A stretch of 64,000 bases of DNA from Streptomyces sp. XM4193 (GTDB lineage: Bacteria; Actinomycetota; Actinomycetes; Streptomycetales; Streptomycetaceae): positions 124,001-188,000 of the forward strand of contig NZ_JALLGK010000002.1 of NCBI RefSeq assembly GCF_023072595.1, given 5' to 3'. The position numbers and the translations under genes are program-made. The notes under the pieces are model-generated. The model saw only the letters and a list, made by a program, of their open reading frames with translations. It ran no database searches and had not been told where the DNA came from. This document shows positions 16,962-62,063 of this stretch, in pieces (position 1 is the first letter of the stretch; each line of letters starts with the position of its first letter).

Positions 16962-17462
16962 TCAGAGGGTCGCCGGTGGCTCCTGCGGTCCCTGCGGCCC
17001 CTGTGTCTCCGGCGGCTGGGGCCGGCGGACTCTGGCCGGGTGGGTCGGTACGCGGGTGCCGGGCTCGTCCAGGCAGTGGCCGTCGGTCAGGTCGAAGCGC
17101 TGCTTGAGCAGTGGCGAGGCGACGAAGGGCCGCCCCTGCGCCGAGCCGAGCAGTCCGCGCGCGAGCACCTGGGCTCCGGTGAAGGGGTCGCGGTTGCCGA
17201 TGGCGTACACCCTTCCGGTCCGGTCGAGGAAGACCGCGATCTGGCGGCCGTCCGGCAGCAGCGCCGCACGTCCGCGGCCGGGGATGAGCCGCGCCAGTGC
17301 GCACACCTGCGTCCACGCCACGTCGAAACGGACCTCGACCAGGCCCGACGGGTGTTCGTCGGGCCCGGGTTGACCGCCGCCCCGGTCCGGACGGGGTGCG
17401 GGTGCCGGTTCGGACGCGCCTGCGGGTGCGGGTGCGGAGGTCGGTGGGGCGGGACGGTTCAT
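16962..17462 (-). CDS. nirD: Nitrite reductase (NADH) small subunit
   Basis: Partner of NirB in assimilatory reduction of nitrite to ammonium. The 166-residue product has a Pro/Ala-rich leader of about 40 residues, then a Rieske-like beta fold (CALARLIPGRGRAALLPDG, VFLDRTGRVYAIGNRDPFTGAQVLARGLLG, FVASPLLKQRFDLTDGHCLDE). The Rieske cluster CxH motifs are absent, as is usual for NirD. Its ATG overlaps the nirB stop by 4 nt, so the two are translationally coupled. The C-terminal tail is Pro/Gln rich. Confidence 0.93.
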   Translation of the reverse strand: MNRPAPPTSAPAPAGASEPAPAPRPDRGGGQPGPDEHPSGLVEVRFDVAWTQVCALARLIPGRGRAALLPDGRQIAVFLDRTGRVYAIGNRDPFTGAQVLARGLLGSAQGRPFVASPLLKQRFDLTDGHCLDEPGTRVPTHPARVRRPQPPETQGPQGPQEPPATL

Positions 17463-20140
17463 CGGGGGCCGGCTCCTTGGAGGGGGCGGACGGGGATCTC
17501 GGGTCCGGAGAGCAGGGTGAGGTCCGGCTTGACCTGGTCGCGCTCCGGGAGGAAGGCCACCGAGGGGTCGGGGGTGGAGGGGGCGTTGATGAAGGAGGTG
17601 AACCGCTCAAGCTTGTCCGGGTCGGAGAGTGTCTGTGCCCATTCGTCCCGGTAGTGCGACACATGCTCGGCCATCAGCCGCTCCAGTTCGTCGCCGATGC
17701 CGAGCGAGTCCTCCACCACCACCCGTCGCACGTGGTCGAGGCCGCCCTCGATGCGCTCCAGCCACACCGAGGTGCGTTCCAGACGGTCGGCGGTGCGGAT
17801 GTAGAACATCAGGAACCGGTCGATGAGCCTGATCAGTTCCGCCTCGTCCAGGTCCTGCGCCAGCAGGTCCGCGTGCCGCGGTGCGGCGCCGCCGTTGCCG
17901 CCCACCCAGAGGTTCCAGCCGTCGGCGGTGGCGATGATCCCGAAGTCCTTGGACCGGGCCTCGGCACACTCGCGCCGGCAGCCGGAGACCGCGGACTTCA
18001 GTTTGTGCGGGGCCCGCAGGCCCCGGTAGCGCAGCTCCAGGTCGATGGCCAGCCGCACCGAGTCCTGTACGCCGTACCGGCACCAGGTCTGCCCGACGCA
18101 GGACTTCACCGTGCGCAGCGACTTGCCGTACGCATGGCCGGACTCGAACCCGGCCTCCACCAACCGGGCCCAGATGCCGGGGAGTTGGTCGACCCGGGCG
18201 CCGAACATGTCGATGCGCTGGCCACCGGTGATCTTGGTGTACAGCCCGAAGTCCCGCGCCACCTCGCCGATCAGGATCAGCTTCTCCGGGGTGATCTCGC
18301 CGCCCGGCACCCGGGGCACGACCGAGTACGAGCCGTTGCGCTGGAGGTTGGCCAGGAAGTGGTCGTTGGTGTCCTGGAGCGCGGACTGCTCGCCCGCCAG
18401 CACATGCGGCTCGGCGCCGATCGCCGGCGCGAGCGAGGCGATGATCGAGGCGACCGTCGGCTTGCACACCTCGCAGCCCTCGCCGCCCGCGGCGTCCTTG
18501 CGGCCGTGGCTGTCCAGCAGCACCCGGTAGGAGGTGATCCGCAGCGTCCGCACGATCTCGTACAGCTCCTGCCGGGTCTGGCCGAAGCAGCCGCACAGCC
18601 CCGGATCGACCACCACGCCCCGTGCGGTCAGCTCCTCGTTCACGAGCTGCCCGAGCAGCGGTACGCAACTCCCGCAGCTCGTACCGGCGCCGGTGCACTT
18701 CTTCACCTCGGCGACCGTGCCGCAGCCCTGCTCGGCGACGGCGTTCCGCACCTCGGCCCCGGTGACGTGGTGGCAGCTGCAGACCACCGCCTGCGGCGGC
18801 AGCGCGGGGGGCCCGGACGTGCCGGCGGGTGCGGCGCCCGCGGGCAGCACCAGGGTGCCGGGCGGTACGGAGGGCACCGTGCCGGTGAGTGCGCGCAGCG
18901 CGGCGTACGACTCCGCGTCCCCGACCAGAACGCCGCCGAGCAGGGTGCCGTCCGTACCGACCACCAGCTTCCGGTGGATGCCGGCGCCCGCGTCGGCGTA
19001 GACCACCTCGTGGCGGTCCTCGCCGCGGGCCAGCGCGTCGCCGAAGGAGGCGACGTCCACGCCGAGCAGCTTGAGCCTGGTCGAGGTGTCCGCGCCGGTG
19101 AACAGCCTCGGTTCGACGGCGTCCCGTCCCGGCGCCCAGCGGCGGGCGAGGTCCTGCGCGGCGGTCTCGGCCATCTCGTAGCCCGGTGCGACCAGCCCGT
19201 AGACGGTGCCGTCCGCCGCCCTGGCGCACTCGCCGACCGCGTAGACGTGACGGTCGTCGGTGCGGCAGCGCTCGTCGACCACCACACCACCGCGCTCGCC
19301 CACCGACAGCCCGCACTCCCGGGCGAGTTCGTCGCGCGGGCGTATTCCGGCGGCGAAGACGACCAGATCGGTCTCCAGCCGCGTTCCGTCGGAGAGCACC
19401 GTGCCGGCCACGGCGCCCTCGTCGTCGACGGTGATCTCCCGGGCGGACACACCGGTGTGCACCTCGACACCCAGGCCCTCCACGGTGCGGCGCAGCGCGG
19501 CGCCGCCGCCGGCGTCGACCTGGAGCGCCATCAGCCGTTCGCCCGACTCGACGACGTGGGTGCGCAGTTCCAGGCTCCTGAGCGCCCCGGCCGCCTCCAG
19601 TCCGAGCAGTCCGCCGCCGACCACCGCGCCGGAGCGCGAGCGCGCCGCGTACTCCTCGATCGCCAGCAGGTCCTCGATCGTGCGGTAGACGAAGCAGCCG
19701 CGCGCTTCGCGTCCGGGCACCGGTGGGACGAACGGGGCGGAGCCGGTCGCCAGCACCAGCGCGTCGTAGCGCACCCGCAGGCCCGAGCGCGCGGTGACCA
19801 CCCGCTCCCGGCGGTCGATGCGCACGGCCGGGTCGGCCAGGTGCAGCTCGATCCCGTGCTCGGCCGCGAACCCGGCGTCCAGCAGGGAGAGTTCGTCGGG
19901 GGACGTACCGGAGAAGTACGAGCTGAGCGCGACTCTGTCGTACGCGGCGCGGGGCTCCTCGCAGAGCACCACGATGCGGGTGCCGCGGGTGAGCCCGCGA
20001 TCGGCCAGGGCCTGGAGGCAGCGCTGGCCGACCATGCCGTGGCCGACGAGTACGAGGGTGCGGCGGTCGCCGCGCGAGGGGGACGCCCCTCCGGTCGGGC
20101 GCGGCCGGTGCCCCGGCGGTGCGGGCGTCGTCGCGGTCAT
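17459..20140 (-). CDS. nirB: Nitrite reductase (NADH) large subunit
   Basis: An 893-residue siroheme enzyme reducing nitrite to ammonium with six electrons from NAD(P)H. In order: an FAD/NAD(P)H domain (VLVGHGMVGQ near 30, AVVGGGLLGLEAAGAL near 170), two BFD-type [2Fe-2S] segments (CSCHHVTG near 456 with CGSC, then CGCFGQT near 516 with CEVC near 556), and the nitrite/sulfite reductase halves. Siroheme/[4Fe-4S] cysteines are CVGQTWC near 681 and CRREC near 721; the family usually reads CPREC. ATG 20140 follows GGAGG. A candidate GlnR box lies 300 nt upstream. Confidence 0.96.
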   Translation of the reverse strand: MTATTPAPPGHRPRPTGGASPSRGDRRTLVLVGHGMVGQRCLQALADRGLTRGTRIVVLCEEPRAAYDRVALSSYFSGTSPDELSLLDAGFAAEHGIELHLADPAVRIDRRERVVTARSGLRVRYDALVLATGSAPFVPPVPGREARGCFVYRTIEDLLAIEEYAARSRSGAVVGGGLLGLEAAGALRSLELRTHVVESGERLMALQVDAGGGAALRRTVEGLGVEVHTGVSAREITVDDEGAVAGTVLSDGTRLETDLVVFAAGIRPRDELARECGLSVGERGGVVVDERCRTDDRHVYAVGECARAADGTVYGLVAPGYEMAETAAQDLARRWAPGRDAVEPRLFTGADTSTRLKLLGVDVASFGDALARGEDRHEVVYADAGAGIHRKLVVGTDGTLLGGVLVGDAESYAALRALTGTVPSVPPGTLVLPAGAAPAGTSGPPALPPQAVVCSCHHVTGAEVRNAVAEQGCGTVAEVKKCTGAGTSCGSCVPLLGQLVNEELTARGVVVDPGLCGCFGQTRQELYEIVRTLRITSYRVLLDSHGRKDAAGGEGCEVCKPTVASIIASLAPAIGAEPHVLAGEQSALQDTNDHFLANLQRNGSYSVVPRVPGGEITPEKLILIGEVARDFGLYTKITGGQRIDMFGARVDQLPGIWARLVEAGFESGHAYGKSLRTVKSCVGQTWCRYGVQDSVRLAIDLELRYRGLRAPHKLKSAVSGCRRECAEARSKDFGIIATADGWNLWVGGNGGAAPRHADLLAQDLDEAELIRLIDRFLMFYIRTADRLERTSVWLERIEGGLDHVRRVVVEDSLGIGDELERLMAEHVSHYRDEWAQTLSDPDKLERFTSFINAPSTPDPSVAFLPERDQVKPDLTLLSGPEIPVRPLQGAGPR

Positions 20141-20430
20141 CGGCTGCCTCCGGCGGGTGCGTGGGCACGGCGGGCCGGGCGGCAACCGGCGCTCGCGCGG
20201 GCGCGGTTGCCGGCGCTGCCGCGTGGCGACGTGCAGGCTCGGCCGCGTGGCGATGTGCAGGCTCGGCCGCCGGCGCAGGTGCCGGCGCTCGCGCGGGCGC
20301 ACCGGTCGGGGCGCGCTCCCGGCGGGTGTGGGCGGGTGCCTCGGGCGGGTTCGGACACGACGACGGCGAGCGGCACCCGTACGTCCGCCGGGCACCGCTC
20401 GCCGTTCGCCACCGCTGCTGTCTCCGTCAT
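20137..20430 (-). CDS. Hypothetical small cysteine-rich ORF overlapping nirB (doubtful)
   Basis: A 97-codon frame from ATG 20430 ends with a TGA that overlaps the nirB start as ATGA, the layout of translational coupling. It has high third-position G+C and contains an in-frame duplicated octapeptide, RACTSPRG twice, from a 24-bp tandem repeat. Against it: no clear ribosome site, no family resemblance, and if the GlnR box acts at the usual distance from its promoter the transcript would begin after this ATG. It may be just a long nirB leader. Confidence 0.25.
   Translation of the reverse strand: MTETAAVANGERCPADVRVPLAVVVSEPARGTRPHPPGARPDRCARASAGTCAGGRACTSPRGRACTSPRGSAGNRARASAGCRPARRAHAPAGGSR
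20218..20265. repeat. 24-bp tandem duplication upstream of nirB
   Basis: Two adjacent 24-bp copies, 20218-20241 and 20242-20265, differ at one base (gacgtgcagg against gatgtgcagg). It lies in the nirB leader region, which also has a repeated ccggcgctcgcgcgggcgc at 20187-20205 and 20282-20300. Confidence 0.85.
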
Positions 20431-20498: not shown

Positions 20499-21749
20499 TC
20501 AGCGCGCCTGGGCGGCTGCTGTGAGCCGGTCCTCCCCGAGCCGGACCGGCAGCACGACCACGCTGTTGCCGACGAAACTGCCGCGTCGCGGCTCGACCTT
20601 CTCCGCCTCGGCCACGTCCAGGTCCGGGAAGCGTGTGAACAGCCGCTCCAGGGCGATCGTCGCCTCCATCCGGGCCAGCGGGGCGCCCAGGCAGTAGTGC
20701 GGGCCGTGGCCGAGGGAGAGGTTGCGGCTGTCCTCGCGGGTGACGTCGAAGGTGTCGGCCCGCTCGCCGTGCGCCCGCTCGTCGCGGCCGGCCGCCGCGT
20801 AGCCCGCCAGCACCGGGGTGCCCTGCGGGATCACGGTGCCGCCGATCTCCAGGTCGCGGGTGGGGTAGCGGAAGGGGAAGTACGCCACCGGGGCGTCGTA
20901 GCGCAGCGTCTCCTCGACGACGTCCAGCCACGTCGCCTCGCCGCGCAGCACCAGCTCCAGCTGGTCGCGGTGGGCGCAGAGCGCGCGGACGGCGTTGGTG
21001 ACCAGGTTCAGCGTCGTCTCGTGGCCGGCGATGATCAACAGCAGCAGGGTGCCGATCAGTTCGCTCTCGCTGAGCCGGTCGCCGTCCTCCTCGCGGGCAG
21101 TGATCAGCGCGTTGGTGAGGTCGTCCTTCGGGTCGGCGACCCGGGCCGCCGCGTGCTGGGCGAGCATCCCCACCATCTCCTTGTTGGAGGCGATGACCTC
21201 CTCCGGAGTGATGCTGGTGCTGACCACGTGCGTGGTGAGCGAGTGCAGCTTGTCCGCGTTGCCGGGGTCGACACCGAGCAGCTCGCAGATGACGCTCATC
21301 GGCAGCGGGAAGGCGAAGTTGCGGCGCAGGTCCGCCACTCCGTCGTTCGCCTCGGCCGCGGCGGCGAGGTTGTCCAGCAGCGAGCCGGTCAGCTCCTCGA
21401 CCCGCGGACGCAGCGCCTCCACCCGGCGCTGGGTGAACGCCCGGCTGACCAGCGAGCGCAGCCGCCGGTGGTCGGCGCCGTCGGCGGTCGTCATCCCCGC
21501 CACCGTGGTGAAGGTGTGCAGCGGCCAGCCCTCGGGGATCCGGCCCTCCTGAAGCGCGGTGAAGTGCTCGGCGTTCTTGGCGACGTCCTCGTGGGTCAGG
21601 AACTCCTTGAGCTCCTCGTGTCCGAGCACCGCCATGCCCTCGACCTCGCCCGGCAGGATGACCTCGGCGACCGGGCCGCGGGCCAGCAGCCTGGCGTTGG
21701 CCGCGTGCGGGCAGCCGCCCTGGGGGTCCATACGGTGTGGCGTGTTCAT
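20499..21749 (-). CDS. Cytochrome P450 (CYP154-like), second P450 of the conservon
   Basis: A 416-residue soluble monooxygenase. The I-helix oxygen-activation motif AGHETT lies near 245, the K-helix ExxR is present (EETLRYDAPV near 285), and the heme-thiolate loop reads LGHGPHYCLGAPLARME near 350. The substrate is unknown. ATG 21749 overlaps the stop of the preceding P450 by 4 nt (ATGA), so this is the last gene of a six-gene operon. In Streptomyces, CYP154 members typically accompany CYP157 members at the end of conservons, and this pair fits. Confidence 0.93.
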   Translation of the reverse strand: MNTPHRMDPQGGCPHAANARLLARGPVAEVILPGEVEGMAVLGHEELKEFLTHEDVAKNAEHFTALQEGRIPEGWPLHTFTTVAGMTTADGADHRRLRSLVSRAFTQRRVEALRPRVEELTGSLLDNLAAAAEANDGVADLRRNFAFPLPMSVICELLGVDPGNADKLHSLTTHVVSTSITPEEVIASNKEMVGMLAQHAAARVADPKDDLTNALITAREEDGDRLSESELIGTLLLLIIAGHETTLNLVTNAVRALCAHRDQLELVLRGEATWLDVVEETLRYDAPVAYFPFRYPTRDLEIGGTVIPQGTPVLAGYAAAGRDERAHGERADTFDVTREDSRNLSLGHGPHYCLGAPLARMEATIALERLFTRFPDLDVAEAEKVEPRRGSFVGNSVVVLPVRLGEDRLTAAAQAR

Positions 21750-23122
21750 CGCGGCTCTCCTCGGTGGTGGGCGTGGGCGGGGGCGGGTCCCTGGGGACCG
21801 CCGCCCCACACGGGCTGAGCTGATTCCTGCTGTCCGGCTCCGCCTCCGGAGGTGCCCGGGGCGGGCCGGTGGGTGGTGTCCGGCACCGAGAACCTGACCG
21901 GGAGCGCGGCGAGTCCCTTGGACCACGGGCTCTTGACCCAGGCCAGATCGCTCTCGGCGACCGCCAGTTCCATGTCGGGCAGTCGGTGCCTGATGGTGTC
22001 CACGGCGGTCCTGGTGATCAGCCGTGCCGGATCCTGCGCGGGGCAGGTGTGCGGGCCCGCGCTGAACGCGAGGTGGGAGCGGTTGCCGATGACGGGGGTG
22101 CCGTGCGGCAGCACCTCCGGGTCGGCGTTGGCCGCCGCGAGTCCGAGGATGAGCATGTCGCCGGCGCGGATCTGCTGGCCGCCGAACTCCAGGTCGCGGG
22201 TGGCGTACCGGGCGGGGAAGTTCTGCGTCGGGGGGAAGCGCCACAGCACCAGGTCCAGCGCGTCGTCCACGGTCAGGTGGCCGCCGGCCAGCGAGGAGCG
22301 GAACTGCGGGTCGGTCAGCAGGATGCGCAGTGTGGTGGCGATCCAGTTGGTCGTGGTCTGGTTGCCCGCCACGAACATGACCGTCATGTTGTGCAGCACT
22401 TCTTCGTCGGTCAGCCGCGCGGGGTGGTTGAGCAGCGCGGAGGTGACGTCGGGGCCGGGACGGCGGCGCTTCTCCTCGATCAGGGTGAGCAGGATCTTGG
22501 CCATCCGCTGGCTGGCGTTGGCCGAGTCCGCGTTGGCCGCGACCAGCCCCGCGATGGCCTGCACCAGCTGGAGCGCGGTGCGTTCGTCCAGGCCGAGCAG
22601 CTGGGTGATGACCTGCATGGGCAGTTTGCGCGCGTAGTGCGGTACGAGGTCGGCCTCCCGGCGCTCGACGAATCCGTCGATCAGCCGGTCACAGGTGGCC
22701 TGTACGGTGCGGCGCAGCTCGTGGCCGTTGATCCGGGTGAGCGCGTCGGAGACCGCGCTGCGCATCCTGCGGTGCTGCTGGCCGTCGAGGAAGAGCAGCG
22801 CGGGACGCCAGCCCACCATCGGCATGATGGGGGAGTCGGGCGGGATGCGCCCCTCGCGCAGCAGTGTCCAGCGGCGCGGGTCGTGGCTGAAGTCCTGTTC
22901 GTCCCTGGTGAGTCGGAGCAGTTCGCGGTGGCCGAGCACCAGCCACGCCTCCACTCCCGGCGCCATCGTCACCGGGGCGACCGGCCCGTGGGTGCGGCGC
23001 AGCTCCTCGTACAGCTCGGGCATGTCGTCGCCGCCCAGGTGCGGACCGTAGAGCGGGGTCGCGGGGCAGCGGGCTTGCCGGCCGCCCTGGGGGGCGGTCC
23101 ACTGCGGGGGCGGGCTCGTCAT
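21746..23122 (-). CDS. cvnE: Cytochrome P450 lacking ExxR (CYP157-like), conservon gene E
   Basis: A 458-residue P450-fold protein. The I-helix reads FVAGNQTTTNW, without the usual acidic residue before the Thr. At the K-helix, where ExxR is expected, the sequence is DALDLVLWRFPPTQN (about residues 286-300), with no Glu at the needed spacing. The heme loop FSAGPHTCPAQDPAR near 361 keeps the cysteine. Absence of ExxR is a known feature of the CYP157 family in Streptomyces conservons. A Pro/Gly/Gln-rich C-terminal tail follows. The start overlaps the cvnD stop (ATGA). Catalysis is uncertain; it may work with the following P450. Confidence 0.92.
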   Translation of the reverse strand: MTSPPPQWTAPQGGRQARCPATPLYGPHLGGDDMPELYEELRRTHGPVAPVTMAPGVEAWLVLGHRELLRLTRDEQDFSHDPRRWTLLREGRIPPDSPIMPMVGWRPALLFLDGQQHRRMRSAVSDALTRINGHELRRTVQATCDRLIDGFVERREADLVPHYARKLPMQVITQLLGLDERTALQLVQAIAGLVAANADSANASQRMAKILLTLIEEKRRRPGPDVTSALLNHPARLTDEEVLHNMTVMFVAGNQTTTNWIATTLRILLTDPQFRSSLAGGHLTVDDALDLVLWRFPPTQNFPARYATRDLEFGGQQIRAGDMLILGLAAANADPEVLPHGTPVIGNRSHLAFSAGPHTCPAQDPARLITRTAVDTIRHRLPDMELAVAESDLAWVKSPWSKGLAALPVRFSVPDTTHRPAPGTSGGGAGQQESAQPVWGGGPQGPAPAHAHHRGEPR

Positions 23123-23916
23123 GACGACTCCGTGGCGGACTCGATGAGGTGGCGCACGAGAGCGATCAGGGCCTGCACCGAGGAGGTGTGGTCCCGTGCG
23201 TCGCAGTTCACCACCGGCGTGTGGGGGAGCAGGTCGAGGGCGTCGTGGAGATCCTCGTACGCGTGCAGGGGGCTGTTGGGGAAGTGGTTGACGGCGACCG
23301 CGAACGGCAGGTCCAGATCCTCCAGATGACCCAGTGCGTCGAAGGAAGCCTCCAGGTCCCGGGTGTCGATGAGTGCGAGCGCGCCGAGTGCGCCCTTGGC
23401 CAAGTCCCGCCAGGCGGGCAGGAACCGCTGCTGGCCGGGGGTGCCGAAGAGATAGAGGACGAGTTCGTCGCCGAGCGTCATCCGGCCGAAGTCGAGTGCC
23501 ACCGTGGTGGTCTTCTTGTGCGAGGCCGCGGTGTCCACCCGGGCGCCCGCCTTGGTCATGGTCGCCTCGGTGGAGAGCGGCCTGATCTCGGAGACCGTGC
23601 CGATCAGCGTGGTCTTGCCGACTCCCAGCGGTCCCACGACGAGGATCTTCGCGGCACCGGTGACGGTGGGGCGGACGTACTGCTCGGCGGCCGGTGCGGC
23701 GGTGTGCGCCGGGCCGGGGTCCGCCGGGCCTGCGGGGCGCGCGGCGTGCCGGCCCCCGGGGTGCTCGGCGAGCGGTTCGGACGGCGCGGTGCGGGACATT
23801 GCGGCGACCTCCGGTGCCGGTGCGGCGGGGCGGGTCCAGGGCGTGGGCTCGGTCCGTGAGCCGGGCGCGCCGGACCGGCCGTCGCCCGGAGTGTCACAGG
23901 CGGCTTTCGAGCCCAT
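23119..23916 (-). CDS. cvnD: Conservon small GTP-binding protein
   Basis: A Ras/Gtr-like GTPase of the conservon switch. From ATG 23916 it has 265 residues: about 88 residues of Pro/Ala-rich leader, then KILVVGPLGVGKTTLIG (P-loop near 95-103), FGTPGQQRFLPAWRDLAKGA (switch II; the usual DTPGQ begins with Phe-Gly here) and VNHFP in place of NKxD. The start overlaps cvnC by 23 nt and is preceded by AAAGG; ATG 23799 would give a shorter protein nearer the typical length. Conservons are membrane-associated signalling complexes that include this GTPase. Confidence 0.93.
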   Translation of the reverse strand: MGSKAACDTPGDGRSGAPGSRTEPTPWTRPAAPAPEVAAMSRTAPSEPLAEHPGGRHAARPAGPADPGPAHTAAPAAEQYVRPTVTGAAKILVVGPLGVGKTTLIGTVSEIRPLSTEATMTKAGARVDTAASHKKTTTVALDFGRMTLGDELVLYLFGTPGQQRFLPAWRDLAKGALGALALIDTRDLEASFDALGHLEDLDLPFAVAVNHFPNSPLHAYEDLHDALDLLPHTPVVNCDARDHTSSVQALIALVRHLIESATESS

Positions 23917-24250
23917 CGAGAACCTTTCTCAGCAGCACTACATCGTTGCGGGCGGTGGGAGCGGCGGGCGGACGCACCAGCGCGAGCCCCCACTCCACCA
24001 GGTCCGCGAGCAACACCTGTACGACGGAAGGGGGTTGGCCCAGGTGGGCCGAGACCTCGGCGACGGAGAGCATGCCCTGGCAGTGCCGCAGGATCCTGCG
24101 GTACTCGGGTTGCAGCGTCGGCGGGGGCGGCACCTCGGAAGCCGTCACCAACGACTCCCAGGGCAGCACCTCACCCTTCGCCCCCGCCCGGCCGCCGGTG
24201 ATGACGTACGGACGGACGGCGGAACTGGTCTGCTCCTCCCAGCCGCTCAT
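23894..24250 (-). CDS. cvnC: Conservon DUF742 protein
   Basis: A 118-residue DUF742 protein with the typical order: VRPYVITGGRAG near the start, a winged-helix-like core (RHCQGMLSVAEVSAHLGQPPSVVQVLLADLVEWGL) and a hydrophobic end VLLRKVLDGLESRL. It is conserved as the third gene of conservons, between the Roadblock and GTPase genes, and is thought to link them. Its ATG overlaps the cvnB stop by 4 nt. Confidence 0.93.
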   Translation of the reverse strand: MSGWEEQTSSAVRPYVITGGRAGAKGEVLPWESLVTASEVPPPPTLQPEYRRILRHCQGMLSVAEVSAHLGQPPSVVQVLLADLVEWGLALVRPPAAPTARNDVVLLRKVLDGLESRL

Positions 24251-24693
24251 GACGACTGCGGTAGCGCATCCCGGGGCTCACTGCTCAGATGGCTGCCGAT
24301 CTTCGCCACCAGCAACTGCATCTGCTGCGCCACCAGCGCCACATCGGCCTCCAGATCGGTGGCCACCCCCAGGTGCGCGCCGACTCCGGCGGAGGTGAAG
24401 AGGACGAATCCGTACTCGGACTCCAGCATCAACTGCCGTACGCCCGCGCCCTCTCCGAAGAGCAGCCCCACCGTGGAGCGCCCGGTCATCGTCATCGCCG
24501 CGCAGGCGGCGGAGAGCGACTCGGCCTCCGCGACGCTCAGATCGGCGACCGAGCCGGTCAGCCCCTGCGCCGAGGCGTGCCCCAGCCGTAGGCCGTCCTC
24601 GGACACGACCACCGCGTGTCTCACGCCGGGTATCTCGGTCAGCGGGCGCAGCATCCAGCCCAGATCGGGAAGCCGGGTAATGATTCCGCTCAC
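24247..24693 (-). CDS. cvnB: Conservon Roadblock/LC7 protein
   Basis: A 148-residue Roadblock/LC7-domain protein. The fold is seen in LTEIPGVRHAVVVSEDGLRLG, the helix LSVAEAESLSAACAAMTMTGRSTVGLLFGEG, and the strands YGFVLFTSAGVGAHLGV followed by DLEADVALVAQQMQLLVAKIG. Roadblock proteins commonly act as regulators or scaffolds for small GTPases, here presumably CvnD. It overlaps the cvnA stop by 4 nt. Confidence 0.94.
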   Translation of the reverse strand: MSGIITRLPDLGWMLRPLTEIPGVRHAVVVSEDGLRLGHASAQGLTGSVADLSVAEAESLSAACAAMTMTGRSTVGLLFGEGAGVRQLMLESEYGFVLFTSAGVGAHLGVATDLEADVALVAQQMQLLVAKIGSHLSSEPRDALPQSS

Positions 24694-26810
24694 GGTTGGT
24701 CTCCGTAGGGGTGCGGGGAGTGGTCAGGGAGGGGAGGGTGCGGGTTCGGTGGCACCCTCGGTGCCGCAGCCCGCCGGGAGGGCGGTGCGTAGGGATCGGG
24801 GGTGGGCTGGGGCGGCTCGCTCTCCGGGCGGTGCGGGATCTGCGGGGGTTGGGCCGGGCGGTTCCGCTCGGCGGTGCGGCTCTCGGGCACCGCGAGCTCG
24901 CCGCCGCGGGGCTCCGCCAGCTCGGCGCGACCGCGCCGGGTGCCGGAGAGCACGCTGGCCACCGAGGCACGGGCCGCCTCCGGGGTCCAGTCGTCCTGCG
25001 GCGGAGGCGGCTGCGGCGGACCGAAGGCGTCGAACGCGCTGGTGGGCCGCGGCATCCGGCCGGGCACCGGGCGCGGCTCCGAACCGGGCTCCCGGCGACG
25101 GCTGCGCCGCTTGGGCAGTCCGCTGGAGGTGGCGGTCTGTTCGCCGTCCGGGCCCGGTGCCCCGCCGGCCTCGTCCTGGCGGAGGTGGTCGGGCTGCGGA
25201 CGGGCGGACCGCGAGGGCAGCGCGTCGGGTCGGGCGGGCGGCAGCGGTGCGGAGGTCGAGGCGCGCTGGCGCACCGGGAGGTAGGGGGCGGCCGGTGCCT
25301 GTCCGGAGTCCGGCGCGGAGCTGCCGGCGTACGGGTCGGGTTCGGTGCGCGGGCCGGCGGGGTCGGCGTACGCGGCGGGTTCGGGCCGACGGTGGGCGGG
25401 CGGCTCGGGTCGGGCCGCTCCCGGCCCGGCGTACGGGTCGGCGGGACGCGGCTGCCGGTCGTACGGCGACGGCTCGGCGTACGGGGACGGTTCGGCGTAC
25501 GGGGACGGTTCGGCCGGCGGGCGCGGAGCCTCCTCGCGCGGGTGCGGGTGGGAGCCGGTGCGCTCGCGCGCGGGCTCCTCGTGGCGACCGCCGAGCGAGG
25601 AGCCGCCGGGGGCCGGACCGTCGAGGGGCGAGCCGGCGGGCGCGGAGCCGCTGTGGGGCGAACCGCCCTGGTGGGCCTGCGGGTTCTCCTCCCGGCGGGG
25701 CTCGCGGGACAGTGGCTCGGTGAGCAGCCGGTGCGGTACGAACACCACGGCGCGGGTGCCTCCGTACGCCGAGGCGCCGGTCAGCTCCACGTTCAGACCC
25801 AGCTCGCGCGACCAGCGTCCGACGCAGGCCAGGCCCAGTCGCGGCACCGCGCCCAGCGTCGCCAGGTCCACATCGTCGCGCAGCTGGCCGACGGCCAGTT
25901 GGAGCGTGTCCGGCGGCATGCCGAGGCCGGCGTCGTCGATCTCGACGACCGCGCCGGCGCCGACCTCGCGCACCGTCACCACGACCTGGGTGCTGGAGGG
26001 GGAGAACACCGTGGCGTTCTCCAGGAGTTCGGCGATGGCGTGCATCATGCCCTCGACGGCCGGGGGCACCGCGTGCAGTGTCTGGCCGCCGTGCACCTCC
26101 ACCCGGCCGAACTCGACGATCCGCGACTGGGCGCCGCGCACGCAGTCGTAGAGCGATACCGGTCGCGACTCGCGCCGGGCGGGCCAGATGCCGCACATGA
26201 CCAGAAGCGTCTGCGCCTTTCGGGTCATCTGCGCCGCCGCGTGGTCGGCGCGCATGACCTCGGTCATCAGCCTCGGATCGCTGATGATCTTCTCGACGCT
26301 GTCCAGCACCTGGAGTTGGACGGTGGCCATCGCGTGCATGTTGCGGGCGACCGACTCGAAGGCCGCCTGCACGGAGTCGCGCAACGCGCGCTCGCGGCGC
26401 ACCGCCTCGTCCGAGCCGAGCGCGTCGACGACGGTGGCCAGCGCCTGGCTGAAGTCTTCACCGACGACTGCCGGCGGCGTCAACTGCCCGGGTACGCCGT
26501 CCAGTCGGCGGCCTCCGCGCACCCGCCGGGAGATCTCCGGCATCCGTACGGACGCGAGATGCCGCAGCTCGCTCGCGCGTGCCGCCGCGAGTGCCGCGGC
26601 GCGCTCCTCGCGCTGAACGGTCCCGCGGGCGGTTTCGCGCAGCCGCAGTGCCCAGCCGAGGAGGAGCGCCGCGAGCGCGGCACACCCTCCCGCCAGACCT
26701 CCCGCGAGCCCGCCGCCGGCAGCGAAGACCGCCGCCGCCGCGCAGCCGATGGCGAGGACACCGGTAAGGAGCCACCACCTTCCCCGGTTTGCCAACAGCC
26801 GACTCAGCAC
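24690..26810 (-). CDS. cvnA: Conservon membrane sensor histidine kinase-like protein
   Basis: A 706-residue membrane sensor. GTG 26810 is 10 nt after GGGAG and gives a start VLSRLLANRGRWWLLTGVLA. Two membrane segments cover about residues 12-55. Next are a helical dimerisation region with DHAAAQMTRKAQTLLVMCG and a HATPase domain: ELLENATVF (N box), EIDDAGLGMP (G1 box) and a C-terminal Gly-rich turn, ending near residue 360. The last 340 residues are Pro/Arg/Ala-rich and disordered, with repeated PYAEPS units near 440-460. It starts the operon cvnA-B-C-D-E plus P450. Confidence 0.94.
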   Translation of the reverse strand: MLSRLLANRGRWWLLTGVLAIGCAAAAVFAAGGGLAGGLAGGCAALAALLLGWALRLRETARGTVQREERAAALAAARASELRHLASVRMPEISRRVRGGRRLDGVPGQLTPPAVVGEDFSQALATVVDALGSDEAVRRERALRDSVQAAFESVARNMHAMATVQLQVLDSVEKIISDPRLMTEVMRADHAAAQMTRKAQTLLVMCGIWPARRESRPVSLYDCVRGAQSRIVEFGRVEVHGGQTLHAVPPAVEGMMHAIAELLENATVFSPSSTQVVVTVREVGAGAVVEIDDAGLGMPPDTLQLAVGQLRDDVDLATLGAVPRLGLACVGRWSRELGLNVELTGASAYGGTRAVVFVPHRLLTEPLSREPRREENPQAHQGGSPHSGSAPAGSPLDGPAPGGSSLGGRHEEPARERTGSHPHPREEAPRPPAEPSPYAEPSPYAEPSPYDRQPRPADPYAGPGAARPEPPAHRRPEPAAYADPAGPRTEPDPYAGSSAPDSGQAPAAPYLPVRQRASTSAPLPPARPDALPSRSARPQPDHLRQDEAGGAPGPDGEQTATSSGLPKRRSRRREPGSEPRPVPGRMPRPTSAFDAFGPPQPPPPQDDWTPEAARASVASVLSGTRRGRAELAEPRGGELAVPESRTAERNRPAQPPQIPHRPESEPPQPTPDPYAPPSRRAAAPRVPPNPHPPLPDHSPHPYGDQP

Positions 26811-26871
26811 TGGGACGTGGCTCCCTTCCAGGGTGGACGCGACCGCCCCCGACACGGACGCGGGCGTTCCG

Positions 26872-26913
26872 ATCCTAAAAGCAACATACGAACTTAGGGC
26901 TACAGTTCGACAA
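26872..26913 (-). promoter_or_regulatory. Conservon promoter region with palindrome
   Basis: An unusually A/T-rich patch 60-100 nt before cvnA. On the minus strand TTGTCG (26908-26913) precedes TATGTT (26883-26888) by 19 nt, and a second -10-like TAGGAT lies at 26872-26877. Overlapping them is a perfect inverted repeat CGAACT-n9-AGTTCG (26889-26909), a plausible operator. The AraC-type gene starts 260 nt away on the other strand. Confidence 0.5.
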
Positions 26914-27090
26914 CTATCGGTGGCGCGCGCATCGGAGTACACCCCGCTCGTGACATTCGTCAGCGGGACCAAGTTGCCCCGCAGTCACCGGAGTTGGCCC
27001 TGACCTGCGTGAACACCGCCGCTGTGGGCGGTTGTCGGGCCGCGGACAGGGCGTCCGGCTGTCACCGCGCGTACCCGTGGCCGCCGGGCC

Positions 27091-56905: not shown

Positions 56906-59900
56906 TCAGCGGCCGCCGTCGGCGAAGGCGGTGAGGGTCGGCAGCGGGGCCAGCCGGGACGCCAGCAGGTTGGTGGCGCCGTCGGCGCGCTCGACCCGTC
57001 CGTGGACGAGTACCGCCGCGTGGTCCAGAGCCGCCTTCGCACACCGGTTCCACACCGGGGGCAGCACGATCACGTTGGTCATCCCGGTCTCGTCCTCCAG
57101 CGTCAGGAAGACCACTCCCTTCGCGGTGGGGGGACGCTGGCGGTGGGTGACCAGGCCGCCGACGACCACCTCCGTACGGTCCCGCAGCCCGAAGAGCTCG
57201 ACGGTGGGGAGGGCGCCGTAGCTGCGCAGCTGCTCCCGCAGATGCTCGATGGGGTGGTGCTCGGCGGAGGTGCCGGTGGCCCACAGGTCGCTGAACGTCT
57301 CCTCGACGACGCTCATCGCGGGAAGCTCCGGCGCGGCCGGCGTCGGGGTGGTGCCCGGCAGGGTCCGCTCGTCCGCGCGGGAGAGCGGGCCGACCGCCCA
57401 CACCGCCTCCCGGCGCTCCATGCCCAGGCTCTCGAACGCGCCCGCGGTGGCGAGGGTCTCCAGCAGCCCGGACGGCAGCCCGGTGCGCCGGGCGAAGTCC
57501 GCCGGTCCGCTGTAGGGGCGGCCCTCGACGATGGTGCGGGCGGCCTTCTCGCTCAGCCCTCGCAGATGGGACAGGCCCAGCCGGATCGCCGGCTGCTCGG
57601 GTACCGGGTTCTCGGCCGCGCCGCTCGTCGTATCCGCGGTGTGCACCGGGCCGGGGGCGTCCGCGGAGTCGGGGTCCGGTCGGGCGGCCGGCTCCAGCTC
57701 GTCCCGCACCCCCGACCGGCTCACGTCCACCGGGCGCACCTCCACTCCGTGCCGGCGGGCGTCGCCGATCAGGGAGAGCGGGGAGTAGAAGCCCATCGGC
57801 TGGTTCCGCAGCAGCGCCGCCGTGAACGCCGCCGGGTGGTACCGCTTGAGCCAGGCGCTGGCGTACACCAGATGTGCCATCGACTGCGCATGGCTCTGCG
57901 GAAACCCGTAGTCGCTGAAGCCGGCGATCATGGTGTAGATCTTCTCGGCCGTGTTCGCCCCGATGCCGTGGGCCGTCATGCCCCGCAGCAGTTTTCCGCG
58001 CAGCCGCCCGACCCGCTCCGCGGACCGTTTGGAACTGAGCGCCTTCCGGAGCTGATCGGCTTCCGCGGGGCTGAACCCGGCGCAGTCCATGGCGAGTTCC
58101 ATCATCTGCTCCTGCCACAGCGGCACTCCGAGGGAACGTTTCAGCGCCCGTTCGGTGAGCGGGTGCGGATAGGTCACCCTCTCCCGCCCCGCCCTGCGCC
58201 GCATGTACGGGTGCACGCTGCCGCCCTGGATCGGACCCGGCCTGATCAGGGACACCGCCACCACCAGATCCTCGAAACTCCGGGGCCGCAGCCGGGGCAG
58301 CGTGGACATCTGCGCCCTGGACTCCACCTGGAAGACCCCCACGGTGTCCGCGCGGGCGATCATCGCGTACACCTCGGGGTCGTCCTGCGGGATGGTGGAC
58401 AGGTCGTAACGCGCCCCGTGGTGGCGGGCGACGAGGTCGCAGGCGTCGTGCAGCGCGGAGAGCATGCCGAGCGCGAGCAGGTCGATCTTGACCAGCCCCG
58501 CCGCCTCCACGTCGTCCTTGTCGCCCTGGAGCACGCTCCGGCCCTCCGCGGTCGCCCACTCCACCGGGATGAACTCGCCGACCGGCTGCCGGGTGAGCAC
58601 CATGCCCGCCGAGTGGATTCCCAGATGCCGCGGCAGTCGGTCCAGTCGGCCGGCCAACTCCCTTACGTCCTGCGGCACTTCGGCGTCGGCGTCCGGCGGC
58701 TGATGATGGTGGACCTGCCGGCTCATCTCGTCCACCCGCCCGGCCGGATAGCCGAGCGCCCGAGCCGCGTCCCGGACGGCGAGCCGGGGGCGGTAGGTGA
58801 TGATGTTGGCGACCTGGGCGGCGTGTCGACGGCCGTACCGCTCGTAGACGTAGGAGATGACCTCCTCGCGCCGGCGGTGCTCGAAGTCGATGTCGATGTC
58901 CGGGGGTTCGGACCGCTCCGCGGACAGGAACCGCTCGAAGAGCAGCCCGTGGCGCAGCGGGTCGACGCCGGTGATCCCGAGCACGAAGCACACCAGCGAC
59001 GACGCCGCCGAACCCCGCCCCTGGCACCAGATGTCCGCCCGCCGGGCGAACGCGACGATGTCCTGGACGATCAGGAAGTACCCCGCCATGCCCAGCCCGT
59101 TGATGATGCCCAGCTCGTGTTCGAGCTGACGCCAGGCCCGCCCGGACGCCGAACCGGCACTGCCGCCGGGGGAGGGGCCGTACCGCTCGGTGGCGGCGTC
59201 GTGGACGAGCCGGCGCAGCCAGGAGTTCTCGCTGTGCCCCACCGGAACCGGGAAGCCCGGGAGCTGGGGCTGCAGCTCGCCCAGCGGCAGTGCGCACTCC
59301 TCGCCCAGTGCGAGGGTGGCCTCCCGCACGCCGGGGAAGCGGCCCAGCCACGACGCCATCTCGCCGCCCGAGCGCAGATGGGCGGTGGGCGCCGGATGCA
59401 GATGGCCCGCCGCGCTCCGCAGGTCCTCCCGCCGCCGCAGCGCGGTCAACGCCTGCGCGAGCCTGGCCTGGCCGGGAGCGGCGTAGTGCACCGCACCGGA
59501 CGCCACCACCTTCACCCCGGTGCGCCGGGCGGCGGCGAACAGGGTGTGGTTGCGCAGCGTGTCCTCGGGGAGGCGGTGGTCGATCAGCTCCGCGTGCAGC
59601 CGGCCGTGCCCGAACACCTCGGCCAGCTCCCAGAGTTCGCGCACCGCGCTGTCCACGTCCCCGTCCGTCGGCTCCCGCCGGGGGCACCCGGTGAGCACCG
59701 CCCAGTCGCCGTGGTCCGCCGCTCTCGCCAGCGCCGAGAGGTCGTAGACCGGTGCGCCCTTGGAGCCCGCCAGCTGGGCGCGGGTGAGCTCGGCGGAGAG
59801 CCGCCGATAGCCGTCCAGTGTCCGGGCCAGCACCACCGGCGTCCCCAACCCCTGTGCGGAAAGGGAGAGTTCGGCGCCGAAGACGGTACGGACGCCCGCC

Positions 59901-60241
59901 GCGGCCGCGGCCTCCTCCAGCCGCCGCGCGGCGTACAGCCCGTCCCGATCGGTCACCGCGAGCGTACGGACACCGAGCCGGGCCGCCTCGGCGACCAGCT
60001 CCGCGGGGTCGGACGCACCCCGGAGGAAGGAGAAGCCGGTGTGGACGTGCAGCTCGGCCCAGTGCGGCTCGGCGCCGCCGGGCACTCCGAGCGGTACGGG
60101 CGGTGCGGGCGGTACGGGCGGTGCGGGTTCTCCTCCGGCCGGTACGGACGGGCCCGGCGGGGTGGGGGCGTTCGGGGTGGTGCCGCCCGGGAGCATCCTC
60201 AAGTCCGGTCGGCGGCCCGGTCGTCGGTCGCGGTCAGCCAT
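56906..60241 (-). CDS. dnaE2: Error-prone DNA polymerase III alpha subunit
   Basis: The polymerase of the ImuA'-ImuB-DnaE2 mutasome, used for induced mutagenesis and lesion bypass. The 1111-residue product has a PHP domain (WAELHVHTGFSFLRGASDPAELV near 62), the catalytic palm with PPDIDIDFEHRRREEVISYVYERYG near 445, a finger region (QEQMMELAMDCAGFSPAEADQLRKALS near 700) and an OB-fold near the end (GGLVTHRQRPPTAKGVVFLTLEDETGMTNVIV). The first 55 residues are Pro/Gly-rich. ATG 60241 overlaps the imuB stop by 8 nt. Confidence 0.96.
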   Translation of the reverse strand: MADRDRRPGRRPDLRMLPGGTTPNAPTPPGPSVPAGGEPAPPVPPAPPVPLGVPGGAEPHWAELHVHTGFSFLRGASDPAELVAEAARLGVRTLAVTDRDGLYAARRLEEAAAAAGVRTVFGAELSLSAQGLGTPVVLARTLDGYRRLSAELTRAQLAGSKGAPVYDLSALARAADHGDWAVLTGCPRREPTDGDVDSAVRELWELAEVFGHGRLHAELIDHRLPEDTLRNHTLFAAARRTGVKVVASGAVHYAAPGQARLAQALTALRRREDLRSAAGHLHPAPTAHLRSGGEMASWLGRFPGVREATLALGEECALPLGELQPQLPGFPVPVGHSENSWLRRLVHDAATERYGPSPGGSAGSASGRAWRQLEHELGIINGLGMAGYFLIVQDIVAFARRADIWCQGRGSAASSLVCFVLGITGVDPLRHGLLFERFLSAERSEPPDIDIDFEHRRREEVISYVYERYGRRHAAQVANIITYRPRLAVRDAARALGYPAGRVDEMSRQVHHHQPPDADAEVPQDVRELAGRLDRLPRHLGIHSAGMVLTRQPVGEFIPVEWATAEGRSVLQGDKDDVEAAGLVKIDLLALGMLSALHDACDLVARHHGARYDLSTIPQDDPEVYAMIARADTVGVFQVESRAQMSTLPRLRPRSFEDLVVAVSLIRPGPIQGGSVHPYMRRRAGRERVTYPHPLTERALKRSLGVPLWQEQMMELAMDCAGFSPAEADQLRKALSSKRSAERVGRLRGKLLRGMTAHGIGANTAEKIYTMIAGFSDYGFPQSHAQSMAHLVYASAWLKRYHPAAFTAALLRNQPMGFYSPLSLIGDARRHGVEVRPVDVSRSGVRDELEPAARPDPDSADAPGPVHTADTTSGAAENPVPEQPAIRLGLSHLRGLSEKAARTIVEGRPYSGPADFARRTGLPSGLLETLATAGAFESLGMERREAVWAVGPLSRADERTLPGTTPTPAAPELPAMSVVEETFSDLWATGTSAEHHPIEHLREQLRSYGALPTVELFGLRDRTEVVVGGLVTHRQRPPTAKGVVFLTLEDETGMTNVIVLPPVWNRCAKAALDHAAVLVHGRVERADGATNLLASRLAPLPTLTAFADGGR

Positions 60242-62063
60242 AGCAGGCCTCCACCCGCCAGCGGCCCGCGGCGACCTGGACCAGCCACGCCCGCCCGTCC
60301 GCCGTCGCGATCTGCAACCGGGCCAACCTCCGGTCCCGGGACGGGTCCCACCACTGTTCGAGCACCGGCCACGGCCCGGCCCACCCCGTCACTTCGAGCG
60401 CACCCCGCCCCACGACCTCCAGCCGGGCGGGCGGGGCGGACAGCACCGCCCGTCCCGAAACCTCCACCAGCACCCCCGCGGCGTCCCACAGACGGGCGGG
60501 CAGCGGCTCGCGGTAGACCACCGCCGGGTGCGGCGCCGGCAGCCGCCCCACCCAGCGCGCCTCCGTGCGCCCGCCCGCGGTGCCGGAACCCGCGGCGGTC
60601 TCGTCCGGCTCCCCGAACGGGATGCGGAGCACCTGCTCGCCCGGCCCCCGTCCGCCGCCCAACTCGACCCGGGTGACCGCGCCGTGGCCCAGCATCGCCT
60701 GGAGCCGCCCGGCTGCCCGTTCGACCTCCTCGCGGGTCGCCGCCCCGGAGTCGAACAGCTCGCCCTGTCGGCCCTCCTCCGCGTGCAGCCCGTCCGGAGT
60801 CAGGGTCAGACCCGTGATCCCGGTCGGCTCAACTCCGCTGCCGCCCGCGGGAGTCGGCTCCCCGAGCGGCTCGTCCTCCCCCTCGCCGCCCGGTGAGGGA
60901 ACGCCGTCGGTCTGCTGCCAGGCGGCCAGCTGCCACCGGACCCGTTCGGCCACCGCGAGAGCGGAGAGCCCCTCGTGCCGCCACATCCTGGCCTGCCGCC
61001 GGCCGTCGGTGAGCCGGACGGCAACCTCCACCCGCGAACAGGCCAGACCCGCCCGGCGGAGCGTCCCGTGCAGCTCCTCGGCCAACGCCTTGGCCCGGAA
61101 CACCACAGGCTCCACCGCGCGTTCCGCGGGCTCGAACTCCACCGACGCCGAACGGTCCGTGCCTGCCACCCGGGTGTGCGGCACCCGGGCCTCCAGCCCC
61201 CGCGCGGTACGGTGCGCGGCGGCGCCCGGGGGCCCGAACCGAGCCAGCACCCGGTCCGCGGGCAGCGCGGCGAAGTCCCCGAGCGTGGTGAGCCCCAGCC
61301 GGGTCAGCAGCTGGGTCAACTCCCGGTGCCCCAGCACTCCGACCGGGTACGGCGCCAGGAAGCCCGCCGCCCCGTCCACCGGCACCGACCGGGTCGGCCG
61401 GCCCGAACGAGCGGCCAGCGCGGCGGCGAACAGAGTGTCCGCCACTCCCGTGCGCCCCTCCACGCCGGTCTCCGCCACCACTTCGAGAACCTTCTCAGCC
61501 AACGCCTCCTCGCCGCCCCAGTACCGCGCCGCACCCCGTGCGGGGAAGGCCAGCAGTCCGGGACGCAGCACCTCCAGCCGGGGTACGACCCGCTGCTCGA
61601 TCCGGGCCGCCAGCGGCTCGAAGTCCCGTGTCTCCGCGGCGAGATCGCGCTCCACCACCCGCAGGCCGGGACAGCGCTGCTGCGCCTCCCGCAGCCGCAT
61701 CCGCCGGCGGACGCCCAGTGCCCGGGCCTCCGCCGAACAGGCCACGACCCGCCCCTGAGCCACCACCGCCACCGGTGCCACCTCAACGTCCGCCGGGAAC
61801 GTGCCCGTTCGCCCGGCCCCCGCCGCTTCGACCGCGGCCCTGCCCGCGGAGATCCCCGCGCCCGACGTTCCCGCCCCTGCCCTTCCTGCTCCTCCTGCCG
61901 CGACCGTCCCGGCCGACACGACCGTCCCGGCCGTCCCCGCCGACACGGCCGTCCCGGGAGCTCCGGCCGCCGCGCTCCGTGCCCGCGGGCCGGAGACGAG
62001 GGGAACGCCACGGCTGGACACCACCGGCCAGTCCGGACACCACAGCACCAACACCCGGCTCAA
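60234..62063 (-). CDS. imuB: ImuB, Y-family-like mutasome protein without catalytic acids
   Basis: The bridge between DnaE2 and the beta clamp. The 609-residue product from TTG 62063 has a Y-family fold start (VLVLWCPDWPVVS) and fingers block (VVACSAEARALGVRRRMRLREAQQRCP), but the catalytic SxDE motif is replaced by LRPGLLAF, so it is not a polymerase. A QGELFDSG motif near residue 435 matches clamp-binding peptides. Residues about 26-94 are a Gly/Ala/Val low-complexity insertion absent from the usual alignment. A GAGGTGAG site precedes the TTG; GTG 62054 is an alternative. 11 nt follow the imuA' stop. Confidence 0.93.
   Translation of the reverse strand: MSRVLVLWCPDWPVVSSRGVPLVSGPRARSAAAGAPGTAVSAGTAGTVVSAGTVAAGGAGRAGAGTSGAGISAGRAAVEAAGAGRTGTFPADVEVAPVAVVAQGRVVACSAEARALGVRRRMRLREAQQRCPGLRVVERDLAAETRDFEPLAARIEQRVVPRLEVLRPGLLAFPARGAARYWGGEEALAEKVLEVVAETGVEGRTGVADTLFAAALAARSGRPTRSVPVDGAAGFLAPYPVGVLGHRELTQLLTRLGLTTLGDFAALPADRVLARFGPPGAAAHRTARGLEARVPHTRVAGTDRSASVEFEPAERAVEPVVFRAKALAEELHGTLRRAGLACSRVEVAVRLTDGRRQARMWRHEGLSALAVAERVRWQLAAWQQTDGVPSPGGEGEDEPLGEPTPAGGSGVEPTGITGLTLTPDGLHAEEGRQGELFDSGAATREEVERAAGRLQAMLGHGAVTRVELGGGRGPGEQVLRIPFGEPDETAAGSGTAGGRTEARWVGRLPAPHPAVVYREPLPARLWDAAGVLVEVSGRAVLSAPPARLEVVGRGALEVTGWAGPWPVLEQWWDPSRDRRLARLQIATADGRAWLVQVAAGRWRVEACYG

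Follow-up and report, generated by a model that had tools for sequence, protein, structure and literature searches.

Two residues of the K-helix ExxR motif, Glu and Arg, and an Arg of the meander make up the ERR triad of P450s, and certain His and Arg residues contact the heme propionates. The CYP157 family reportedly lacks ExxR, which is said to have been in print since Rupasinghe et al. in 2006. Conservons, the gene sets with which CYP157 is linked, are widespread in actinobacteria, and some of them steer antibiotic production and development. In the accessible part of PMC3599690, the CYP157 motifs are given as EVLW for CYP157A and as EQSLW or EQILW for CYP157C. According to those portions of PMC13343842 that were available to us, the genes cvnE and cvnF accompany CvnA proteins without sensory domains, CvnF8 stimulates the autophosphorylation of CvnA8, an AlphaFold2 model puts CvnE11 on the ATPase domains of CvnA11, and there is no biochemistry on CvnE proteins.

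We analysed a 64,000-nucleotide stretch of DNA from Streptomyces sp. XM4193 (contig NZ_JALLGK010000002.1), called the window below. Six of its genes, all on one strand and overlapping at their ends, run in the order CvnA-B-C-D, a CYP157-type P450 as gene five, and a CYP154-type P450. These genes and the diagnostic stretches of the CYP157-type product are as follows.

24690..26972, minus strand: CvnA, histidine-kinase-like (HATPase_c PF02518, 35 bits only; start codon uncertain)
24247..24693, minus strand: CvnB, roadblock/LC7 (PF03259, 49.5 bits)
23894..24250, minus strand: CvnC, DUF742 (PF05331, 100.7 bits)
23119..23916, minus strand: CvnD, Ras-like GTPase (PF03029, 91.3 bits; own start codon uncertain)
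21746..23122, minus strand: CYP157-type P450 (cvnE), 458 aa (open reading frame and translation; PF00067, 45.5 bits)
22343..22369, minus strand: I-helix stretch AGNQTTTNW, residues 252-260, Gln replacing the acid, Thr kept (translation, alignment)
22229..22264, minus strand: K-helix stretch DALDLVLWRFPP, residues 287-298, LVLW in the ExxR slots (translation, alignment)
22022..22075, minus strand: heme-cysteine loop HLAFSAGPHTCPAQDPAR, residues 350-367, with Cys360 (translation, alignment)
20499..21749, minus strand: CYP154-type canonical P450, 416 aa (PF00067, 96.7 bits; AGHETT, EETLR, FDVTR and Cys)

The CYP157-type gene starts at an ATG at 23122 that overlaps the end of CvnD (ATGA) and encodes a full-length P450-type product. 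Its stop overlaps in the same manner (ATGA) the ATG of the CYP154-type gene at 21749, which in turn ends with a stop at 20499-20501. CvnA-D thus lie directly upstream of gene five. The same genome has three further CYP157-type genes, and its ten DUF742 matches, two being adjacent pieces, correspond to nine conservon loci. On the same strand, directly downstream of the CYP154-type gene, is a gene for a NirB-type nitrite reductase (17459-20395). Elsewhere in the window, at 56906-62063, a gene for a DnaE2-like polymerase III alpha subunit is followed by an IMS (ImuB-like) gene, a pair that resembles what we take to be an SOS mutagenesis cassette. A Pfam search of the window CvnA returned HATPase_c as its sole match and no NIT sensor domain. 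NIT domains were detected five times elsewhere in this genome and none near its three CYP157-carrying conservons. The locus therefore has the layout of a conservon with CvnE, with genes in the order cvnA-B-C-D, then a P450, and a CvnA without detectable NIT, in agreement with the rule on CvnE/CvnF kinases in PMC13343842.

A sequence-only reading of this locus had described a P450 that lacks ExxR and the usual I-helix acid and keeps the heme cysteine, next to a partner with both motifs, as in the CYP157/CYP154 pairs found on conservons. Alignment with 55 CYP154-type neighbours bears out each of these points. Leu occupies the Glu slot of ExxR and Trp the Arg slot, the meander FDxxR segment, from which the third ERR residue comes, is absent, and the triad of an ordinary P450 monooxygenase is accordingly missing. 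The acid/Thr pair of the I-helix is incomplete, with AGNQTT carrying Gln at the acidic position and retaining Thr, and the heme-cysteine loop is intact. The partner reads AGHETT, EETLR, FDVTR and LGHGPHYCLG, which are the CYP154 motifs by which we label it. The window CYP157-type protein is predicted to have a complete P450 fold, since in addition to the PF00067 match an AlphaFold2 model of residues 18-415 (84 sequences) has a mean pLDDT of 91.8, a pTM of 0.92 and a TM score of 0.90 to CYP154C1. Among solved folds, CYP154C1, C2 and C5 come closest, and superposition on 1gwi_B by VIA-align gives a Z of 48.3 with an rmsd of 2.1 A over 388 residues.

The protein is 36-85% identical to 83 relatives, and its orthologue in the closely related S. 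tardus P38-E01 is 99% identical. We call the gene CYP157-type because of its motif (no ExxR, Trp in the Arg slot, heme Cys present), its clade, and roughly 40% identity to relatives that are not themselves officially named CYP157 sequences. In a quick tree of 85 rows, CYP157 as a whole forms one clade with support of 100 and a long stem, and the window gene falls inside this clade, together with genes that carry the printed CYP157A and CYP157C motifs EVLW and EQSLW (SH-aLRT 100). The same tree did not recover CYP154 as the sister family of CYP157. The window gene belongs to a smaller clade (SH-aLRT 100) in which the Glu and Arg slots are Leu and Trp in 25 of 25 genes; Leu in the Glu slot occurs in none of the 114 other CYP157-type genes. 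We did not find LVLW in the part of PMC3599690 available to us. The loss of ExxR in CYP157 is already known, and the window gene is a new sequence variant of a known family.

The family-wide pattern was drawn from 139 CYP157-type and 55 CYP154-type genes at 132 loci, the 139 having been picked by similarity to the window protein with near-copies included (for example the window and locus L009), so that the counts are not of independent events. The heme Cys and the Gly at Cys-4 are kept in all 139. The Arg slot of ExxR holds Trp in 129, Phe in 8 and Arg in 2 (137 of 139 having Trp or Phe), and the Glu slot holds Glu in 60, Gln in 42, Leu in 25, His in 5, Asp in 5 and Arg in 2. All 55 CYP154-type genes show an FDxxR-like pattern in the meander, versus 4/139 of the CYP157 type, where it looks like chance, and the aligned meander Phe column is empty in 138/139. 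The L-helix Glu (weighted frequency 0.97 in CYP154) has become Ile in CYP157 (0.89). Because the ExxR and meander residues are lost and this Glu is replaced by Ile, the ionic core behind the heme appears to have been exchanged for a hydrophobic one. Residues that contact the heme are mostly retained: the C-helix His in 131/139, the C-helix Arg in 108/139, the beta1-4 Arg in 117/139 and the Cys-loop His in 131/139, with all four kept in 83/139 and reading HRRH in 25/25 of the window clade.

Two further variants were seen in this set. In 31 of the 139 genes, two extra residues directly follow the heme Cys (CPYPA, CPFPA and like), as in L093, L097, L101:6055-7557, L103-L106, L110-L113 and others. 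Arg is back in the Arg slot (EVLR, DVLR) on two separate tree branches, at L116:6055-7800 and at L101:14266-16173 (C9 of the window's own genome).

The gene neighbourhood of CYP157 points to the conservon as its constant neighbour and to CYP154 as the variable one. Among genes with enough upstream sequence, the nearest upstream match is CvnD in 115/138, with none in 14, CYP157 in 4, CYP154 in 3 and CvnC in 2. Downstream, where enough sequence was available, a same-strand CYP154 follows in 49/137, an opposite-strand CYP154 in 5, another CYP157 in 4, and none of these in 79, the last count resting on CYP157 and CYP154 profiles with a wider P450 search made afterwards. CYP154 is present in 16/54 non-redundant rows, and its presence changes at least 8 times. 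Constant linkage to CvnD beside an optional CYP154 argues for CYP157 as a CvnE input module of CvnA-D rather than as a CYP154 subunit. The same counts weaken the suggestion of the sequence-only reading that one of the two P450s regulates the other as its subunit. Tandem arrays, with two CYP157s in a row or the order CYP157-CYP154-CYP157-CYP154, occur in L101, L110, L111, L112, L113, L117 and L118. No frame at the 132 loci fuses CYP157 to CYP154 or to a Cvn protein; at L074:2754-4229, CvnC and CvnD share one open frame, a possible natural fusion. We also considered whether pairing with CYP154 goes along with losing the acid or Thr of the I-helix. The raw counts do differ, but no association is seen among independent pairs on the tree (sign test median p 1), and we rejected the connection.

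Purifying selection acts more strongly on the CYP157-type gene than on the canonical CYP154 partner. Simple Nei-Gojobori counting puts dN/dS at 0.01 for CYP157 and 0.106 for CYP154 when the window is compared with L009, and at 0.21-0.26 and 0.39-0.50, respectively, in comparisons with a further four orthologues. CYP157 is the more identical of the two in 145/190 orthologous pairs. A protein that has lost a hallmark motif and yet is conserved above the normal P450 beside it suggests a sensor of the operon rather than an ordinary enzyme.

We therefore favour, at about even confidence, a reading in which CvnE is a heme-thiolate protein of P450 fold that has given up the ordinary architecture and serves as a cytoplasmic input module of the CvnA-D complex. 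This reading draws on the predicted complete fold with its Cys and most heme-contact residues kept, on the replacement of the ExxR/meander triad by hydrophobic residues under strong purifying selection, and on a gene linkage that is tighter to the conservon than to CYP154, with a window CvnA that has no detectable NIT. The CYP157-type protein would bind heme, and a small ligand (a lipophilic metabolite, a gas or a redox state) would alter the state of CvnE at the heme pocket. CvnE would then dock on the ATPase domains of CvnA and alter its activity, which may shift the GTP state of CvnD through CvnB and CvnC. The neighbouring CYP154 most likely serves as an optional add-on, a conventional monooxygenase by which the ligand is made or removed. 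The heme sensor of the sequence-only reading thus survives as our preferred idea with a changed target, namely the conservon kinase and GTPase instead of CYP154. Counting against the input module are the 14/138 genes without a conservon or P450 match upstream, a partial correlation with CvnA of only 0.05 (see below), the incomplete retention of the C-helix Arg and of the full set of heme contacts, and the I-helix residues described next, which may permit oxygen activation.

It is also conceivable, though we think it unlikely, that CYP157 acts catalytically on a substrate of its own, as an atypical monooxygenase or some other heme enzyme that can do without ExxR and in which Trp fills the same core. 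The complete predicted fold, the invariant Cys and the strong purifying selection would all suit such an enzyme, as would the I-helix Thr, which 24/25 genes of the window clade retain. With that Thr, and with acid and Thr together in 30/139 relatives, oxygen activation by CYP157 may be possible. A fixed chemistry would, however, be expected to preserve the residues of oxygen activation, and across the family these vary: the acid is kept in 62/139 and Thr in 75/139 (with Pro in 48), the pair is complete in only those 30, and both are absent in 32/139. CYP154-type genes, by contrast, keep Thr in 55/55 and the acid in 54/55.

Less probable still is that CYP157 supports the adjacent CYP154 structurally or allosterically, the two forming one enzyme system, as EryCII does for the glycosyltransferase EryCIII. 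The ATGA overlap of the two genes would fit such a partnership, as would the finding that the solved structures most akin to the CYP157 model are CYP154s. So would a weak match of the window protein to TIGR04515, the P450-derived glycosyltransferase activator model, although its 98.5 bits lie far below the cut-off of 343 and its Cys is present, which place it outside that family. The shared history of the paired genes fits it as well, with r 0.92 between CYP157 and CYP154 over 34 loci and a partial r of 0.56. In mirror-tree comparisons, r of CYP157 with each of CvnA, CvnB, CvnC, CvnD and CYP154 is 0.73-0.94 and does not discriminate among them; the partial r values of CYP157, taken from 16 loci, are 0.62 with CvnB, 0.55 with CYP154 and 0.05 with CvnA. 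These partial distance correlations do not favour CvnA as the partner of CYP157, and the CYP154 value is substantial where CYP154 is present. Yet the 79 genes without a CYP154 or CYP157 downstream speak against such a partnership. The wider search found a same-strand P450 within 800 bases in just 1 of them and none in 78; 65 have no P450 within 3 kb, and CYP170-like and other P450s lie near some loci. Moreover, L111, L112 and L118 have two CYP157s and no CYP154, and EryCII is without the heme Cys in what we could consult of PMC3391682, whereas CYP157 has it throughout.

That CYP157 is a degenerate P450 turning pseudogene and merely carried by the operon is extremely improbable and decay is not a reasonable reading, for despite the loss of several catalytic motifs its dN/dS of 0.01-0.26 is below that of the intact partner, the Cys is kept in 139/139, and a CYP157-type match is present in 121/121 sampled genomes of the genus.

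A sister subfamily of CYP157 offers a hint as to possible ligands. Its members have Gly two residues after the Cys, a K-helix that mostly reads EQVLWD, and a conservon but no CYP154. Of its 44 genes, 26 are followed within 250 bases by a terpene-synthase-like frame, versus 0/95 of the other CYP157-type genes; the match at L064, one of these 26, is weak and falls in a long overlapping frame. Seven proteins of this kind (L002, which is the C13 locus of the window's own genome, L019, L028, L033, L041, L075 and L080) all match PF19086 in Pfam, and the eighth protein submitted, from the second gene in L028, is a methyltransferase. Curated cut-offs were reached by 2/8 of those tested, as selina-4(15),7(11)-diene synthase (L019) and 7-epi-alpha-eudesmol synthase (L033). 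Bit scores of the strong terpene-synthase matches are inflated by second-round self-matches; the Pfam scores are unaffected.

The association was also seen in 18 genomes, single-contig or nearly so, that were chosen before their terpene genes were looked at. Among the matches listed there (150 of 181 DUF742), 5/42 conservons with CYP157 have a terpene synthase no more than 6 kb away, versus 0/108 of those without (Fisher p 0.0014), and a 10-kb limit gives 5/42 versus 1/108. In the same genomes 7/58 CYP157 genes have a terpene synthase within 5 kb, versus 0.26 expected under uniform placement.

CYP157 conservons without CYP154 that adjoin terpene synthases, mostly convergently, include L102:4581-6683 (C13 of the window's own genome) and L019, L020, L021, L024-L026, L028, L033, L034, L038, L041, L057, L060, L066, L071, L072, L075, L084, L088 and L099. 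CYP170-like P450s adjoin CYP157 genes, some of them without a conservon, at L027:4081-5865, L040:4121-5485, L089, L039, L019, L020 and L028. Their best solved match is 3dbg, which is labelled a putative P450 and is presumably CYP170A1. At the window locus we saw neither a terpene synthase nor a CYP170-like neighbour, the gene after CYP154 being that for the NirB-type reductase. We found no paper on conservons beside terpene synthases in the open-licence PubMed Central literature, which is a weak negative. In the available part of PMC13343842, Cvn8 represses an adjacent lanthipeptide cluster and so sets a precedent for conservon control of a neighbouring biosynthetic cluster.

Extending the input-module reading, we tentatively suggest, while regarding it as rather unlikely in this full form, that CYP157 is an intracellular receptor built from a P450, in which loss of the triad has freed the heme-thiolate pocket from catalysis. 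Such a receptor would read a lipophilic metabolite, a terpenoid in one subfamily, and drive the histidine-kinase/Ras-GTPase switch; a neighbouring terpene synthase, CYP170-like or CYP154-type P450 would make or clear the ligand, and the switch may control the cluster of that enzyme. If true, one of the best-studied enzyme folds would have gained a new use, and there would be a direct handle on the signals that switch clusters on and off, for which the terpene-synthase neighbours supply a short list of candidate CvnE-binding compounds.

Compared with described systems, the window gene shares with CYP157A and CYP157C of Streptomyces the heme Cys, Trp in place of the ExxR Arg, and the link to a conservon; it differs in that the window clade reads LVLW, with Leu also in the Glu slot, where the accessible part of PMC3599690 has EVLW and EQSLW or EQILW. 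As for CvnE of cvn9-12 in S. coelicolor, described in the portions available of PMC8510531 and PMC13343842, the P450 directly follows cvnD and CvnA has no detectable NIT, but in the window a second, canonical P450 comes after the CvnE gene. CYP154C1 (1gwi) and CYP154A1 (1odo) are the closest solved folds to the CYP157 model and the partner gene is of CYP154 type, although CYP154-type genes keep ExxR, AGHETT and FDxxR, unlike the window CYP157-type gene. EryCII and DesVIII resemble the proposed CvnE as P450 folds serving as regulatory partners of another protein; unlike CYP157 they are without the heme Cys and act on glycosyltransferases, as far as the consulted part of PMC3391682 describes them. 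CvnF8 has the same operon position and the same class of CvnA as CvnE, but is a GAF fold that binds and stimulates CvnA8 (PMC13343842, in part), an action that for CvnE is a proposal. A sharper functional hypothesis is that CvnE feeds the CvnA-D switch as its heme-thiolate input, a neighbouring enzyme being an optional maker or remover of a ligand whose effect would reach CvnA.
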